This document shows, one piece after another, positions 26,996-37,494 of a DNA stretch of 64,000 nucleotides; position 1 is the stretch's first letter, and each line of letters opens with the position of its first letter. The stretch lies in the NCBI GenBank assembly GCA_030682575.1, contig JAUXNX010000023.1, forward strand, positions 124,001-188,000, written 5' to 3'. This DNA is from Gammaproteobacteria bacterium. GTDB lineage: Bacteria; Pseudomonadota; Gammaproteobacteria; Pseudomonadales; Pseudohongiellaceae. The position numbers were made by a program, and so were the translations under genes. The notes under the pieces were generated by a model, which was given only the letters and a program-made list of their open reading frames with translations, did no database searches and was not told the origin of the DNA.

Positions 26996-28207
26996 TTAGT
27001 CGGTCTTTCCCGAATACTGCGGGTTCCCAATCATCACGTCTGCACCCAGAGTGATGCCAGGCTCGAATTCCCAGGGACTGCCGTGGCGGTTCTCTTCCTT
27101 GTAGTCCTGACTCGGAGAAAGTTCTCCGAGACAGCGTGCTGCCTCACGATAGAGGTTCGCTCGATACGATTGTTGTACCAGGGCGCGGGTGTCATCCGCA
27201 TTGATTTCCTTGCCGAGCAACGCGCTGCTCTGCTGCACGATCCATTCAGCGTGAGAACGCCAGGGGAATCCCGCCTGAAATTTCCAGAACACATGAAATT
27301 CCGGAACCTGCACAGGCGCATCGTTCTTGCTGAAGCGGTAGTCGCCGGTCAGCGAAGGCAGCAGCATCTTCTCCGGCAGATTCAAATACTGACGCTGGCT
27401 CATGATTTCCGCGATACGCACGCGCTGCTGCGGTTCCGTCAACAGGCGGCAGGCCTCCATGATGGCCAGCCGCAGGCGCAGATGTGTGGCGGGGTGCAGG
27501 TTGTGCCAGTGTTCGGTCACTCCCAGTACCTTCTCGGGGGCGTTGTTCCATATCTGATAACCACTGGCGGCTACAGTGCCAATGCCCTGTTCCACCGCCA
27601 CCGTACTCCAGGGTTCGCCGACGCAGAAGCCGTCGATGATGCCGCGGGCGAGGCTGTCGCACATCTGCTCCGGCGGTAGAACCAGCAGGCGGATGTCGAC
27701 GTCCGGGTCGATCTGCCCGGCCTGGAACCACAGCCTCAGCAGGAAGGTATGCATGGAGAAGGCGTGCACTGTCGCGAAGGTCAGACGGCTGCCCGGGCCG
27801 CGTTCCTTGATCTGCTCACCGAGTTTTTTCACTACTTCCAGTGCGTCGGGTGCCCGGCCTGGATAGTGCAGGCCAAGACTGTCCCAGAGGCTGTTGGAAA
27901 CCGTGATGGCATTGCCATTCAGGCCAAGCGAGAGGCCTGTCAGCAGATTTCCGCGAATGCCTCCGGCCCCGAAAGTGGTAGTCATTGGCAACGGCGCCAG
28001 CAGATGGGCGGCGTCCAGATCGCCGATTACCAGCTTGTCGCGCAGATTCGCCCAGGACACTTCGCGACGCAGCGTGACGTCCAGTCCGTAGCGGGCGTAG
28101 AGTCCTTCTTCCTTGGCCAGGATCAGCGGCGCGGCATCGGTCAGGCGCATGTAGCCGAGAGAGAGTTGAGTGATTTCAGCCGGTGGCAGGCGCGCTGGGT
28201 CAGACAT
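26996..28207 (-). CDS. nasS: NasS-type nitrate sensor (cytosolic NrtA homologue)
   Basis: A 403-residue NrtA-like binding protein with no signal peptide: the protein opens MSDPARLPPAEITQLSLGYMRLTDAAPLILAKEEGLY, so it stays in the cytoplasm. The motifs ANLRDKLVIGDLDAAHLLAPLPM and GLSLGLNGNAITVSN parallel those of NrtA. NasS binds nitrate or nitrite and, without ligand, holds NasT inactive. The gene follows nasT by three bases, so they are co-transcribed as a regulatory pair, and it is followed by the nrt leader. NrtA relationship is clear; the sensor role follows from the missing signal and the nasT neighbour. Confidence 0.92.
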   Translation of the reverse strand: MSDPARLPPAEITQLSLGYMRLTDAAPLILAKEEGLYARYGLDVTLRREVSWANLRDKLVIGDLDAAHLLAPLPMTTTFGAGGIRGNLLTGLSLGLNGNAITVSNSLWDSLGLHYPGRAPDALEVVKKLGEQIKERGPGSRLTFATVHAFSMHTFLLRLWFQAGQIDPDVDIRLLVLPPEQMCDSLARGIIDGFCVGEPWSTVAVEQGIGTVAASGYQIWNNAPEKVLGVTEHWHNLHPATHLRLRLAIMEACRLLTEPQQRVRIAEIMSQRQYLNLPEKMLLPSLTGDYRFSKNDAPVQVPEFHVFWKFQAGFPWRSHAEWIVQQSSALLGKEINADDTRALVQQSYRANLYREAARCLGELSPSQDYKEENRHGSPWEFEPGITLGADVMIGNPQYSGKTD

Positions 28208-28210
28208 GGG

Positions 28211-28819
28211 CTATTTCCTGATTTCGAGTGCTGAGAGGGTGGCAATGACCGTCTGGGCGACATCACGCAGTCTTTGGTTGTTGTCCATGGCGAGGCGCGT
28301 CAGTAACTGATGCGCCTCGTTTTCGCTGATGCGCTTCTGCAGCATCAACAGGCCCTTGGCCTTCTCGATCAGCGTGCGGTCCTGCAGCTGCGTGCGAGCG
28401 GTGTCCAGTTCCTGACGCAGGCCCTGGAACGACTTGAACTGCGCCATCGCCACCTCGATCACGGGCTTGACCTTGGCAGGGTTGATGCCTTCCATGAGAT
28501 AGGTACTGATGCCCGCCTCGACAGCCTGACGAATGTAGTCCGGATCGTCCTCCTCCGCGAACATCACCATGGCCGTGGGGCTGTGGCGGTTGACAATGGC
28601 AAGACTTTCCAGCACGTCGCGGTCGGGAGATTGCAGGTCGATGAGCACCACGTCCGGCCTGTGCTGCTCGATCTGGAAGAGCAGGCCGGTGGCGGATGAG
28701 ATGACGGAGAGCACCTCAAAGCCAGCGGCCTTGAGGTGCTCTTCAACTGACTGGGCCCTGCTGGGGTGATCGTCAACCAGCATGACCCTGATCGGGGCGT
28801 TCTGTGGAGCGGACTTCAA
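28211..28819 (-). CDS. nasT: NasT, ANTAR-domain transcription antiterminator
   Basis: A 202-residue protein with an N-terminal receiver-like domain (IRVMLVDDHPSRAQSVEEHL; VVLIDLQSPDRD) and a C-terminal ANTAR RNA-binding domain (DRTLIEKAKGLLMLQKRISENEAHQLLTRLAMDNNQRLRDVAQTVI). ANTAR proteins bind leader RNA hairpins and prevent termination. Regulation is by release from NasS in the presence of nitrate, not by phosphorylation. The start is TTG at 28819, with AGGA upstream; the ATG at 28783 would cut off the first strand. Likely targets are the leaders of nrtA and of the porin gene, both of which carry strong terminators. Confidence 0.92.
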   Translation of the reverse strand: MKSAPQNAPIRVMLVDDHPSRAQSVEEHLKAAGFEVLSVISSATGLLFQIEQHRPDVVLIDLQSPDRDVLESLAIVNRHSPTAMVMFAEEDDPDYIRQAVEAGISTYLMEGINPAKVKPVIEVAMAQFKSFQGLRQELDTARTQLQDRTLIEKAKGLLMLQKRISENEAHQLLTRLAMDNNQRLRDVAQTVIATLSALEIRK

Positions 28820-30396: not shown

Positions 30397-30597
30397 ATAT
30401 TTTAATTTCTTAAAATACAGCAAGTTATATTTTTCTCCGCGCCCTGATCGTTACTGCACGCGGGTTTTTGCTGCACAACAATGTAGCGAAAACGTGCATC
30501 GCGCTCACAATGCGGGCAGTGTTTGCGGAGCCAGTGGCGTCAGCAACCAGCAGCAACTGATATCGCCATTGACCCAAAGCCCTGTTGGGAAATGTAG

Positions 30598-30644
30598 TTG
30601 GCGCTCTCCGAAGTGTACATCTATACTTGCATCATTCTGTACAT
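30598..30644 (+). promoter_or_regulatory. Promoter and twin TGTACA operators of the Phd-PIN module
   Basis: A -35-like TTGGCG (30598-30603) and -10 TATACT (30622-30627) are 18 bases apart. TGTACAT occurs at 30614-30620, inside the spacer, and at 30638-30644, just before the gene. TGTACA is the core palindrome bound by YefM/Phd-type antitoxins, so this is a likely autoregulated operator. The two centres are 24 bases apart. Confidence 0.6.
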
Positions 30645-30656
30645 GAGGGCGTAACG

Positions 30657-30884
30657 ATGAAACAAGCCACCTTTACTGATGTGCGCAATAACGCCAAGCA
30701 ATACTTCGACATCGTTGAAGCGGGCGAGTCCGTGCGGGTCCTTCGCAACGGCAAGCCTATCGCCGACATCGTTCCCATCATGGCGGATCTGCCATCCTGG
30801 AAGCGGCGCAAAGCGCAACCGCTGGTGCTCAGCGGAGTCGCCGTGAGCACCATGATCATGGATGCCCGCAACGAGGGTATGTAA
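30657..30884 (+). CDS. Phd/YefM-family antitoxin
   Basis: A 75-residue protein with MKQATFTDVRNNAKQYFDIVEAGESVRVLRNGKPIADIVP, the Phd/YefM DNA-binding fold, and a C-terminal tail that should neutralise the toxin. It precedes a PIN-domain gene by 15 bases. Phd antitoxins usually pair with Doc or YoeB, but pairing with PIN (VapC-type) toxins is also common. The ATG at 30657 is used since it starts at the domain boundary. Confidence 0.9.
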   Translation: MKQATFTDVRNNAKQYFDIVEAGESVRVLRNGKPIADIVPIMADLPSWKRRKAQPLVLSGVAVSTMIMDARNEGM

Positions 30885-30899
30885 GGAAGGGACAGGTCA

Positions 30900-31313
30900 A
30901 TGCGTGTTTTCTTCGATTCCTCTGCTTTCGTTAAACGTTATATCAGCGAACCGGGCACAGAAAGTGTACTGGCATGGTGCGATCAGGCAACGGAGATCGT
31001 GTTGTCCGGCATCATCCTGCCCGAGATCATTTCAGCCTTTTGTCGACTGCAACGTGAAACCAGAATTACCCAGACCCAGTATCGCCAACTGAAGTCTCTG
31101 CTTCTGGCCGACATAGAGGATGCCGCACTTGCTGACCTGAGCCCGGAAGTGTTGGCACACGCTATTGCCAATATCGAAACCAATACGCTGCGCGGTATGG
31201 ATGCCATTCACATCGGTAGTGCACTGGCATTGAAAGTCGATGTTTTCTTGTCAGCCGATTCACGCCAACTTGATGCAGCTTCGCGCGCAGGATTGCGGGT
31301 GGAGGCAGTGTAG
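30900..31313 (+). CDS. PIN-domain toxin (VapC-like)
   Basis: A 137-residue PIN ribonuclease. The acidic residues in VFFDSSAFVKRY (Asp), LPEIISAFCRLQ (Glu), LRGMDAIHIGSAL (Asp) and FLSADSRQLDAA (Asp) make the magnesium site. PIN toxins cleave tRNA or other RNA. It is encoded 15 bases after the Phd-type antitoxin, under the same TGTACA-controlled promoter. The sequence is intact. Confidence 0.9.
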   Translation: MRVFFDSSAFVKRYISEPGTESVLAWCDQATEIVLSGIILPEIISAFCRLQRETRITQTQYRQLKSLLLADIEDAALADLSPEVLAHAIANIETNTLRGMDAIHIGSALALKVDVFLSADSRQLDAASRAGLRVEAV

Positions 31314-32903: not shown

Positions 32904-34085
32904 TCAATAAACCTCAAACAACCCCGCCGCACCCATGCCGCCACCAATGCACATCGTGCAGATGACATACTTCGCGCCACGGCGTTTGCCTTCGATCAGC
33001 GCGTGGCCCACCATGCGGGCACCGCTCATGCCGTAGGGGTGGCCGATGGAGATCGCGCCACCGTTCACGTTCAGCAGTTCATCAGGGATGCCGAGTTTGT
33101 CGCGGCAATAGATCACCTGTACGGCGAACGCTTCGTTCAATTCCCACAAACCAATGTCATTCATCGTCAGACCGAAACGCTTGAGCAGTTTCGGCACGGC
33201 GAACACGGGGCCGATGCCCATCTCGTCGGGATCGCATCCAGCCACGGCCATGCCGCGATAGGCGCCAAGTGGCTTCAGTCCGCGCTGCTCTGCCAGCTTG
33301 CTGTCCATCAACACGGCGGCAGATGCGCCGTCGGAGAGCTGGCTCGCATTGCCCGCCGTGATGCAGCCGCCTTCGATGACAGGCTTGAGAGATTGCAGTC
33401 CAGCGAGTGTGGTGTCTGCGCGATTGCCTTCGTCCTTGCCGAGCGTGATTTCCTTCATGCTCTGTGCCTTGGTTTCCTTGTCGACGACGATCATGGTGGA
33501 CTTCAGCGGCACAATCTCGGCGTCGAACTTGCCAGCGGCCTGCGCGGCAGCGGTGCGCTGCTGGCTCTGCAGACTGTACTCGTCCTGCGCCTCGCGACTG
33601 ATGTTGTAGCGCTTCGCGACCACTTCCGCTGTTTGCAACATCGGCATGTACGCGTGCGGCGACATGGCGATCACGTTCGGATCGACGGTTCGGAAATTGT
33701 TGCGGTGTTCGTTCTGCACCAGCGAAATCGATTCCAGTCCGGCGCCGATGACGATGGGCATGTTGTCCATGACGATCTGTTTTGCGGCAGTGGCAATCGC
33801 CATCATGCCCGAGGCGCATTGTCTGTCCAGACTCATGCCCGAGACGCTGCTCGGCAATCCGGCGGCCACCCCGGCCAGACGACCGATGTTGTAGCCCGAG
33901 CTGCCCTGCTGCATCGCGCAGCCCATGACGACATCGTCAACTTCATCGGGCGCGATGCCCGCTTTCTGCAGTGCGGCGCGAATGGCATGACCGCCCAGCG
34001 TGGGCGCCTCGGTGTTGTTGAATGCGCCGCGATAGGCTCGGCCTATCGGCGTTCTTGCGGTGGCAACGATGACTGCTTCTTTCAT
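32904..34085 (-). CDS. Acetyl-CoA C-acyltransferase (thiolase)
   Basis: A 393-residue thiolase. [20 protein letters not shown] opens the protein; the active-site Cys is in [15 protein letters not shown], a His in [19 protein letters not shown], and the second Cys in [17 protein letters not shown]. It catalyses reversible condensation or cleavage of beta-ketoacyl-CoA. The ATG at 34085 has GGGAAA ahead of it; an in-frame TTG at 34103 is less likely. It begins 37 bases after the UGSC-type selenoprotein gene in the same direction, so it may belong to that operon. Confidence 0.93.
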
Positions 34086-34122: not shown

Positions 34123-34659
34123 TCAAATGGTTCGCTCGACGATCAGGCCAATAATCCTGTCCATGGCCTGGCGTGCGAGTGTCACCATTTCTGCATCGGT
34201 ACGATCCTGAATGGGATGCTGCACGAAGATGCCGGCGGGCTCGACGCCGAGCGAACGGCTCTGTGCCTTCGCTGCCTCAATGAACTCCGTGGAAGCGACA
34301 AAGCCTCCCGGGATTCCGCGACCTTCGAGGTCCATGATGTCATGCAAACTGCACGACGTGCATGAGCCTCAGTCGGCCAGTCCTTCGATGACGGCGTCAC
34401 ACTCGACACTGATCTGTTGATTCAGTGTCACAGGTGCGACGCGCGTGAAGGTCGGTTTGCTGTAGCGGTTGACCTTGATGTCGAGGCCCAGCGCTAGCAG
34501 TTGTTTCTCCACCTCGTCCAGAAATTCCCTGCCGCGCGGCTTGGAAATATCCAACAGGCCGATGGTCTTGCCCTGCAGGGTCGTCAGTCGTGGCAGCAGC
34601 GCGCGTTCGGGCGGTTGCAGCTCTGACGTCGGATCGAGCAGTGTGATCTGTTCGCTCAT
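34123..34659 (-). CDS. UGSC-family selenoprotein with in-frame TGA (Sec)
   Basis: The minus-strand frame from ATG 34659 (AAGGAG eight bases upstream) runs 96 codons to a TGA at 34371-34369 and then continues in the same frame for 81 more residues to a real TGA at 34125-34123. Around the first TGA the translation is [31 protein letters not shown], the U-G-S-C motif of the UGSC selenoprotein family. Both halves show one continuous domain, ending [19 protein letters not shown]. The protein would have 178 residues with Sec97 and a nearby Cys100, a likely redox pair. A stem-loop follows the TGA. Standard callers would split it in two. Function in the family is not established. Confidence 0.88.
34332..34368 (-). 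promoter_or_regulatory. Candidate bacterial SECIS stem-loop after the Sec TGA
   Basis: Directly after the TGA at 34369-34371 the mRNA can pair TCATGCA with TGCATGA (seven pairs, twelve-base loop with G second), or alternatively TGCAC with GTGCA around GTC. A second small hairpin (GACCT-CGA-AGGTC) follows about 40 bases downstream. bSECIS elements lie just 3' of the UGA inside the coding region and position SelB. The main hairpin starts closer to the UGA than the usual 16-37 bases, so the fit is partial. Confidence 0.4.
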
Positions 34660-34687: not shown

Positions 34688-36259
34688 TCAAACATTTCGA
34701 ACAGTTGTGGACACCAGTTGACTGCCGCGCTCACCCGAGGCAGCCCAGCCGCTGACGATGGCAGAGAAGAATCCGGCCCGACCGCCCGCACAGAGAATGT
34801 GCAGGCCATTGTCGCGAAACTTGTTCACCATCTTCTCGCGCATGGATTCCGGCATGCCCTCGGCGATGCCGCCAGCCCCGCGCACGATCTCTGCGCCGGG
34901 TGTACGCAATGCATCGAAGAGTGCGGTTCTCACATCCTGCTTCGACCAACCCGCTTCCATGAAGATGCGGCGATGTTCGTGACAAAGGATGAGCAGCGCA
35001 TCGGCCGTCAGGAACAGTTTGTTGTGACAGACTGAACGCAGCGATAACGCAATGCTGCCGATCAACGATTCGGGGGTGCGGGAGCGCTGATCGGAGATCG
35101 GTTGCACGCCGTCTCCAGCAAACAGACTGACAACAGAATCGCCGCGCGTGAGGCCCTGATCCATCGCCAGCGAATTCCACGTTGGTTCGGACTCGTCCTC
35201 ACTGAAACAGAATGTGTACTTGCCGGGATTGCCCAGTGTGGCGCGATCGATGCCGCCGGGTTTGCCGCCGCCGACATTGCGGATCAGCAATTGCAGCGCG
35301 CGCCCGATGGTGGCGTTGGCGCGGTTGCCCTGACCTAGCGCATTGATGCCGCTGTTCATGCCGATCAGTTTCGCGACGGGTCCATTGACGATGACGACAG
35401 GCGATGAAAAGTAAGTCGTGCACAGCAATCCGTGCATGCAGAAGGCGTCGAGCAAAGCGGCTTGGACGGTGGCAAGCACCACGGGAAAATATTCGGGCCG
35501 ACATCCGGCCATCACCGCATTGATTGCCACCTTCTCGATCGTGCACGGCACGCGATCCGGCGGCACGATGCCGATCACTTCGTCGGCGGCACGTGAGGTG
35601 GCATTGAGCATCTTCAACACACGCAGCGGCGTAGGCGGCACCACGGGAAGACCGTCGGTCCAGCCTCTGTCGTAGCAGGCTTCCATCACATCTTCGTCGT
35701 CACTGACCAGCAGGTGGCGCGCCTTGAGCTTGCTTTGACCATAGCGCAACTGCAGTTGTTCATGCACGCCAGGATCATGGGTCTTCGAGCCGCAACCAGG
35801 GCGGAAGGCAGGCAGGTCGGCACCCAGTTCTGCAATGCCCGTGAAATCCTGCCATTGAGCCTTGTCCCAGCCGTAGATCTGCGAAGGTTCCTTGCCCCCG
35901 CCGCTGCGAATCAGCGTGGGGACAATTTCGATATGGTTCCTGAAGGAGTGTTCGAGCGCAGTGTCATCAAGGGTAGATGGAATCGATGTGGGAAATTCGG
36001 GGTCGTCCTGACTGTAAACCCGAAGTCGTTCACCGAAGCGATCATGGAGGGTCTGGAACGCGGGCTCTGCCAACTGGCAGGTGGGGCAATCCTTCTTGAC
36101 AAACAACTCATAGGTGAACGGCGCATCCGCATCTATTCCTGCCGGATGCTCTGCCAGGGCAATAGTCGAGTTGTCTTCTGAGTCTGAACGATGCAATCGC
36201 AACGGCCCCCGCCCTGGCAATGAATCAGTGTGCACCGGGATTCCGATCATCCCTGACAT
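34688..36259 (-). CDS. Thioredoxin-domain protein of the UGSC locus
   Basis: A roughly 520-residue two-domain protein. An N-terminal thioredoxin-like domain (YELFVKKDCPTCQLAEPAFQTL with CPTC, and IVPTLIRSGGG with cis-Pro) is followed by a large C-terminal domain with GWTDGLPVVPPTPLRVL, GIVPPDRVPCTIEKVAINAVMAGCRPEYFPVVLATV, PVVIVNGPVAKLIGMNSGINALGQGNRANATIGRALQLL and LHILCAGGRAGFF. This domain is found with UGSC proteins, but its function is unknown. The gene lies 28 bases upstream of the selenoprotein start, in the same direction. Start is uncertain: GTG 36289, ATG 36259 or ATG 36250. Confidence 0.75.
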   Translation of the reverse strand: MSGMIGIPVHTDSLPGRGPLRLHRSDSEDNSTIALAEHPAGIDADAPFTYELFVKKDCPTCQLAEPAFQTLHDRFGERLRVYSQDDPEFPTSIPSTLDDTALEHSFRNHIEIVPTLIRSGGGKEPSQIYGWDKAQWQDFTGIAELGADLPAFRPGCGSKTHDPGVHEQLQLRYGQSKLKARHLLVSDDEDVMEACYDRGWTDGLPVVPPTPLRVLKMLNATSRAADEVIGIVPPDRVPCTIEKVAINAVMAGCRPEYFPVVLATVQAALLDAFCMHGLLCTTYFSSPVVIVNGPVAKLIGMNSGINALGQGNRANATIGRALQLLIRNVGGGKPGGIDRATLGNPGKYTFCFSEDESEPTWNSLAMDQGLTRGDSVVSLFAGDGVQPISDQRSRTPESLIGSIALSLRSVCHNKLFLTADALLILCHEHRRIFMEAGWSKQDVRTALFDALRTPGAEIVRGAGGIAEGMPESMREKMVNKFRDNGLHILCAGGRAGFFSAIVSGWAASGERGSQLVSTTVRNV

Positions 36260-36377
36260 GAAGTTTTTGCTTCCATATCCCTGCGCCACAGTAGGGTTGA
36301 GTGTAACCGAATGCCCGGTCTTTGCCTAAGGAGACACAGCAGTGTTGTTCAGAGGCTCCTCAACCGCTCGCTGCAGC

Positions 36378-37238
36378 TCAAGGGTCTTCGCGAATCCTCA
36401 GGAAGCGGGCAAAGCGCGGTACACCGCGAGCAGTGAACCCGGAGTATTGATAAGTGATCCGACTGCCTATTGGCGGAGGATCACGTCGTTGTGCATCGCT
36501 GAAACCAGTGCCAATGCGGAAGCGAATCCCGCTGTCCATTTCCACCAGCACGGAGCCCATCATGCCGGTCAAGCGTCCTTGTCCCCCTTGATGGGCGATG
36601 ACGGTGGCCTCGGCATCATCGTGAGTCTTCAGCTTCAACAAATCGGCATTGCGCAGGTTGTGATAGAGAGAACTGCCGCGGTGCAGCATCAGGCCTTCGC
36701 CGCCATCGGCTGTCACTCGTTCCAGCTCCAGCATCAGGGCGTCATGGCTGTCGATGCGAAACTGTGGAACAGTCTGCAGCCAGGGAATCTGCTCTGCAGC
36801 CACGATACGCTGCAGTTCCGCGAGGCGCTGGTCGAATGAGCCACCATGTTGCGGCAGGTCGAAGAGCATGAATTTCACCTCCCGCCAATCCTCATCTTGC
36901 GGAATGGCTCGGCGCGCAATGCCCGAGATTTCGTCGAAGCGCAGTCGTGCGATCCACAGTTCACCGTCCAGGGCGAGCCGGGGAAAATTGCGGGTAAACC
37001 ATGTCGGCGCATGGATGGTATTGCCACTGCGGGAGACAAGGCGGGTGCCATCCCAATAGGCGCGCACGCCGTCGAGTTTCTCGCTGATCCAGTAGTCATC
37101 AAGCGCAATCTGCTGTCGGTACTCGGAAGCGAGCATGAGCGCCGGTGGTTCCTGGGTTTGTGCGAGGCTGGCGAAACAGAGCAGTGCGCAAAGGCACAGA
37201 GCACGGCTGGCGCTGCCGTGATGGAGAAATACTGACAT
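36378..37238 (-). CDS. Periplasmic ATP-dependent DNA ligase (LigE type)
   Basis: A 286-residue minimal DNA ligase with signal peptide (MSVFLHHGSASRALCLCALLCFASLAQTQ). The adenylation motif I is EKLDGVRAYWDG with catalytic Lys54; DGELW, MLFDLPQHGGSFDQRL, GEGLMLHRG and LLKLKTHDD are motifs III to V; the C-terminal OB-fold carries VLVEMDSGIRFRIGTGFSDAQRRDPP. These leader-bearing ligases act on DNA in the periplasm. AAGGAGGG precedes the ATG at 37238. It is upstream of the thioredoxin/UGSC genes in the same direction but separated by about 120 bases. Confidence 0.88.
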   Translation of the reverse strand: MSVFLHHGSASRALCLCALLCFASLAQTQEPPALMLASEYRQQIALDDYWISEKLDGVRAYWDGTRLVSRSGNTIHAPTWFTRNFPRLALDGELWIARLRFDEISGIARRAIPQDEDWREVKFMLFDLPQHGGSFDQRLAELQRIVAAEQIPWLQTVPQFRIDSHDALMLELERVTADGGEGLMLHRGSSLYHNLRNADLLKLKTHDDAEATVIAHQGGQGRLTGMMGSVLVEMDSGIRFRIGTGFSDAQRRDPPPIGSRITYQYSGFTARGVPRFARFLRIREDP

Positions 37239-37494
37239 GGTGACCCTCCTTGATCCCGAATATCCGTACTGCTTCAGGTATAGCCTATGGAACACTGTTC
37301 GGCTACCCACCAGATTCTGGAACAGCATACTTTGCAGTTTTTGGTTATAGGTTGGCCTTCTGGATTCTGTGGTGTGTGGTATTGTCTTTCTCAGAATATC
37401 GAGTACAGAACCATAGGTGTACAACGGGAAATTGCAGTTGCTGACGTAGAACAGCAAAGACATTGGCGCCTGACCATGACAGGCATTCAACGAG

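Follow-up and report, generated by a model that had tools for sequence, protein, structure and literature searches.

The stretch analysed here, which we call the window, comprises 64,000 nucleotides (C8:124001-188000; contig JAUXNX010000023.1) of a 3.73 Mb, 33-contig genome from a gammaproteobacterium of the family Pseudohongiellaceae, and its minus strand carries a UGSC-family gene (34123..34659) in which, judged by sequence comparison, a stop codon is very probably decoded as selenocysteine (Sec). The frame runs through 96 codons, an in-frame TGA that is probably the Sec codon (34371-34369), 81 further codons and a TGA stop (34125-34123), giving a putative protein of 178 residues with Sec at residue 97 and the U/C-G-S-C motif at its conserved site. 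A Shine-Dalgarno-like AGGAG (34671-34667) lies 7 bases upstream of the ATG. The initial annotation had described the frame, the TGA, the motif and the Shine-Dalgarno site, and each was found as it had described them. It had also seen no competing start near the second half; a TTG-started open reading frame (ORF) of 74 codons (34347-34123) does exist there, but no Shine-Dalgarno-like sequence was seen before its TTG when the sequence was read by eye.

Both halves of the gene align to the same family models. Against NF041046, the half before the TGA alone covered profile positions 1-68 (E 4e-13) and the half after it positions 70-144 (E 6.5e-19), and PF24696 was also matched by each half separately (E 3.4e-14 for the first, 7.8e-14 for the second). 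The read-through protein scored 139.2 bits against NF041046, for which the cut-off is 125, and 131.9 bits in the genome search. Relative to the homologue L027, which is 94% identical, changes at codon positions 1/2/3 numbered 2/0/20 over the 60 codons preceding the TGA and 1/1/11 over the following 70, and because of this skew both flanks look protein-coding. By profile and motif the window protein is an ordinary member of a known family, and no essential difference from it was found. The earlier description of the gene as a hidden selenoprotein is therefore too strong, because NF041046 and PF24696 already model the family and the accessible part of PMC2398784 puts it in print by 2008; the TGA-interrupted frame itself is confirmed.

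All of the Sec genes looked for are present in the genome, and all lie on the window's own contig: selA (C8:220854-222242, 577 bits), selB (C8:216464-218404, 372 bits), selD (C8:29847-30776, 296 bits) and tRNA-Sec (C8:215501-215592, 66.9 bits), each over its cut-off, the tRNA being called by ARAGORN as well, with anticodon tca. selA is located ~62 kb from the UGSC gene. The formate dehydrogenase model TIGR01553 gave five matches in this genome, none over the cut-off and none with stops inside.

A bacterial selenocysteine insertion sequence (bSECIS) element is a stem-loop shortly downstream of an in-frame TGA, and the window has both. The bSECIS-like hairpin starts at the UGA (34326..34371, minus strand), and its eight-pair apical stem, which carries a GUU loop (34357-34339), lies at a distance of 14-32 bases from the first UGA base. 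The window RNA from 34374 to 34318 folded at -24.6 kcal/mol vs a shuffle mean of -16.3 (standard deviation 2.9; z -2.91), and 0/200 shuffles were as stable. We also calculated codon entropy over a 120-codon stretch spanning the UGA in 81 sequences (the window and 80 loci), keeping columns in which one residue made up >=80% and more than one codon was possible and dropping the others. The mean relative entropy was 0.33 for the seven retained columns between +3 and +10 vs 0.85 for the 53 columns outside 0 to +14. Near-frozen codons were Ser+5 (TCG, 73/75), Cys+6 (TGC, 80/81), Ser+7 (AGT, 74/74) and Asp+10 (GAC, 81/81). His+9 alternates between CAT (60) and CAC (19), and the pairing is kept despite this variation because its third base faces a stem G; codon choice at Cys+3 is free (44/37). 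The frozen codons suggest that the RNA itself is under selection, which is what a bSECIS element would show, and they provide a model with which further UGSC genes and the companion genes described below could be found.

The TGA is conserved in the relatives. Among the best 80 of 129 matches from a scan of genome contigs (52-94% identical), 79/80 have TGA at the motif within the aligned stretch, and the count becomes 80/80 once L102 is included, whose match has an upstream frame break and whose LAD-U-GSC site was found by reading the forward frames of the locus. A search of 293 genomes of the window's order (E<=1e-10) gave 35 UGSC matches in 25 genomes, 34 of them with a single internal TGA; 29 of these 34 were fetched, and all 29 have the TGA at the motif. 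The sole Cys form among the 35 is the remote L130 (GNCGSCTGW), which supplies the Cys homologue at the TGA position that the initial annotation had proposed to look for. In the same 293 genomes (E<=1e-60, every match over the cut-off), selA was found in 39, comprising 24/24 of those with TGA-form UGSC and 15/269 of the others; these 15 selA genomes have no UGSC match at E<=1e-10.

If the TGA were a true stop, the product would be a 96-residue protein, and the second half would be either a small gene of its own or dead sequence. TGA is an ordinary stop here too, since it ends the same UGSC gene, and the TTG-started ORF could serve as the separate gene; but one family profile covers both halves, coding constraint after the TGA is retained in relatives, the TGA is kept with the hairpin codons in 80/80 relatives and the TTG has no visible Shine-Dalgarno-like site, so that we regard this explanation as very improbable. 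A sequencing error, or a nonsense mutation that recently hit a Cys or Trp codon, would require a single base change in TGC, TGT or TGG, and this explanation, the least probable of all, is refuted by the same TGA in separately assembled genomes, including L027 and strains L065, L066, L067, L097 and L098. Reading of the TGA as Sec in this organism, as the initial annotation had supposed, is supported by the machinery, the conserved TGA and the hairpin with its frozen codons.

Just upstream of the UGSC gene, 28 bases from its start codon and on the same strand, lies a companion gene of up to 533 codons with an uncertain start (34688..36289). It would encode a thioredoxin-like N domain with CPTC, a linker with PGCGS and a C-terminal domain. 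At E<=0.001 the companion had no Pfam match, neither to thioredoxin nor in the C-terminal domain. Its N domain matched the PDB thioredoxin 2o85 (E 6e-4), and Foldseek aligned the companion with thioredoxins (probability 1.00, E 0.004 and up); we class this domain as thioredoxin-like from its CxxC and these profile and predicted-fold matches. The CxxC cysteines and the linker PG-Cys are invariant in all aligned rows (40/40), with the TGA that three rows carry at the linker position counted as Cys. A match to the Leishmania class I fumarase (best E 2.6e-4, TM score ~0.2) is a weak lead. Homology between UGSC and the companion was rejected, the profile comparison giving a probability of 0.2%.

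The companion accompanies UGSC widely. It is upstream on the same strand in 78/80 loci, with gaps of up to ~330 bases except for 1.5 kb in L101, and in L040 its frame is broken; the two loci lacking it are L091 and L073, the latter on a contig that starts with its UGSC gene. In a second set consisting of the window locus and the 29 loci fetched from the order-wide search (n=30), it lies before or after UGSC in 29/30, the miss being L133, near a contig end. Distant UGSC genes are accompanied, before or after, by the companion C-terminal domain without the thioredoxin part, and in L131 UGSC is followed by this domain in a single reading frame. A suspected fusion in L034 was rejected on account of a stop between the two genes. 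Divergent UGSC paralogues (GHUGSCTTG, GDUGSCSSC and others) were seen in L125-L129, L131-L135 and L183-L185, several per genome in some cases, and all but L133 have the companion domain without the thioredoxin part. In L118, L119, L120 and L122, which belong to the same family, companion, UGSC and selA stand in a row with selA directly after UGSC, and this arrangement ties the cassette to Sec synthesis. Taken together, the sequence evidence makes Sec decoding of UGSC and its pairing with the companion highly probable. Our literature searches, with most subscription papers outside their reach, found no description of this pairing.

In some genomes the companion, too, is apparently a selenoprotein. 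Its linker has TGA in place of the Cys codon (PG-U-GS) in L093, L096 and L099; a motif search of the linker located 54 sites, 51 with Cys and 3 with TGA, and missed 34/80 loci. A profile search of 198 genomes of L093's order, probably Acidimicrobiales, found the companion in 94, and among the matches listed were six full-length companions with one TGA, one of them L093 again. In the other five (L178-L182) the TGA is exactly at the PG-Cys-GS site, and each is followed by a TGA-form UGSC gene, which brings the distinct TGA-companion loci to eight. A stem with a five-base loop occurs at an equal distance after the TGA in 8/8 of these loci (folded without a shuffle control), and in L096 and L099 it carries a paired change from C-G to U-A. 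TGA codons in the C-domain-only matches G473, G424 and G510 were dropped, as they are not at the PG-Cys-GS site. NCBIfam gave the Sec form a weak thioredoxin match only, and literature searches, again with most subscription papers out of reach, returned no description of it. The Sec form of the companion is apparently an unrecognised selenoprotein beside UGSC, and an ordinary gene caller would break a gene of this type into two.

The AlphaFold model of UGSC (alignment of 39 of the 81 sequences; predicted local distance difference test 89.4, predicted template-modelling score 0.82) shows five alternating beta-alpha units in the order b-a-b-a-b-a-b-a-b-a, in which Sec97 is predicted to sit between strand 89-95 (strand 3) and helix 98-113. 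The thioredoxin fold has the order b-a-b-a-b-b-a, which differs from that of the predicted structure. Lumazine and riboflavin synthases and others matched by Foldseek were not counted as relatives, their TM scores by query length being ~0.34-0.54 among the 50 listed matches and the fold type a common one. 3-Hydroxyacyl-CoA dehydrogenases (best E 0.14) were likewise taken as a generic nucleotide-binding-fold resemblance; the UGSC profile matched four distinct PDB sequences, all of them such dehydrogenases, at profile positions 20-88.

A different likeness emerged from proteins of the PrdB/GrdB type. The 12 families listed at E<=1 for 39 members of UGSC do not include PF07355, and the window genome had no PF07355 match, in a search that matched no control genome either; PF07355 was matched in 17/46 genomes searched, drawn from those of the 80 relatives. 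The profile was built from 11 of 12 loci fetched from those genomes. These PrdB/GrdB-type genes, L136-L147, have an in-frame TGA, with P[VI]-U-PxC in L137-L147, and the family search reported no internal stop for them because the matched stretch ends just before Sec. Across 80 columns UGSC aligned with this profile Sec on Sec (probability 77%, E 2e-5), the register was kept when the motif was masked on both sides (24%, E 8e-4), and reversed profiles gave 0.1-0.2%. No PrdB/GrdB chain was found in the PDB at E<=1 for a fold comparison. Literature searches found no description of the five-unit fold or of the profile match.

We propose that the hairpin immediately following UGA 97 directs SelB and Sec-tRNA-Sec to insert Sec there, as the machinery, hairpin and conservation suggest. 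Sec97 would then lie at the N-terminal end of helix 3, with Cys100 of the UxxC as the likely resolving cysteine. Its selenolate would attack the substrate and form an Se-S bond, the companion's thioredoxin-like domain would re-reduce this bond through CPTC, and the cysteine of PG-Cys-GS may act as a relay or catalytic thiol. UGSC is on this basis likely a thioredoxin-fuelled Sec reductase, although we hold the reductase chemistry proper, like the electron path, only tentatively. The 2008 survey, in the part accessible to us, suggested a thioredoxin-fold role for UGSC (PMC2398784), and the likeness of UxxC to CxxC fits a plain thioredoxin-fold Sec oxidoreductase acting alone. This is improbable, however, given the alternating b-a order of the AlphaFold model with Sec after strand 3, the lack of a thioredoxin in the listed 50 of the 1884 PDB matches and the position of the thioredoxin-like domain in the companion rather than in UGSC. 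A possible refinement of the reductase proposal, which we would put somewhat below an even chance, is that UGSC is a stripped-down relative of the PrdB/GrdB Sec half, catalysing reductive C-N or C-X cleavage. The Sec-on-Sec alignment with a register that survives motif masking and the same UxxC-helix layout of PrdB, by sequence, speak for it, but the window genome yielded no PF07355 match in the search already mentioned for its blank controls, and the profile match is sensitive to one row, as described next.

Several points weigh against the overall reading. Without the single GrdB row the profile match dropped to 8% (E 4e-3), a level that the best among 60 block shuffles of the full set also reached, so that the link of PrdB/GrdB with UGSC is no more than suggestive. 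No close solved structure was seen among the 50 listed of 1884 PDB Foldseek matches, and the redox role is drawn from the motif, the companion and the fold prediction. The companion was not found across 4 kb upstream of UGSC in L091. Thr+4, in the base of the hairpin stem, is not frozen but intermediate (ACG 62, ACC 18). The 80-relative set favours close forms because it was found with the window's own protein, and the p-value for the association of TGA-form UGSC with selA (Fisher p 2.6e-25, relatedness ignored) is overstated because the genomes are related. The Cys-form genome G052, which carries L130, had no selA match, weak evidence because the genome is only 75% complete. We think it nearly an even matter whether the pair forms an undescribed two-protein selenium reductase, with UGSC as its catalytic half and PrdB/GrdB-like Sec domain, and with a dedicated companion that would contribute the thioredoxin domain, a new domain and the PG[C/U]GS thiol. 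In Acidimicrobiales the companion would on this reading be an unrecognised, Sec/Cys-alternating selenoprotein and part of a two-selenoprotein operon. The pairing and the Sec-capable companion cysteine define a two-protein system that lends itself to expression and testing.

Directly downstream of UGSC is a thiolase gene of the acetyl-CoA acyltransferase family (32904..34085, minus strand), probably in the same transcription unit; it is probably outside the conserved core because it adjoins UGSC in only 30/80 loci (a far, weak match in L088 excluded). Elsewhere in the window, two small adjacent plus-strand ORFs (30585-31313) resemble by eye a prevent-host-death/PIN-type toxin-antitoxin pair, and the minus strand encodes an ATP-dependent DNA ligase (36378-37490; Pfam ligase and OB domains) with a signal-peptide-like stretch ahead, also by eye. 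An ANTAR-domain response regulator adjoins an NMT1-like substrate-binding protein (26996-28819, minus strand), a pair that resembles nitrate-responsive regulator pairs.

The window gene shares with the known UGSC selenoproteins (NF041046, PF24696) a profile score over the cut-off and the UGSC motif, and the Sec form is the common one in that family. According to the accessible part of the Global Ocean Sampling (GOS) survey, UGSC ranks among the commonest selenoprotein families of those metagenomes, with 255 Sec vs 21 Cys forms (PMC2398784), and a 2026 review, likewise available in part, counts it among selenoproteins of largely uncharacterized function (PMC13188914); beyond that review we found nothing on UGSC in the SAO/Tso operon literature. 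The single frame of L131 may contain the same companion domain as the UGSC/'Unknown_1' fusion in the available text of the GOS survey (PMC2398784). PrdB/GrdB proteins (TIGR04483, TIGR01917, PF07355) resemble UGSC in that, by sequence, the Sec of a UxxC immediately precedes a helix-like stretch, and the thioredoxin-linked chemistry of glycine reductase, as given in the part of PMC13188914 available, is comparable with the thioredoxin-like companion of UGSC. They differ from UGSC in their companions and in PF07355, which is absent from the families listed at E<=1 for UGSC members.
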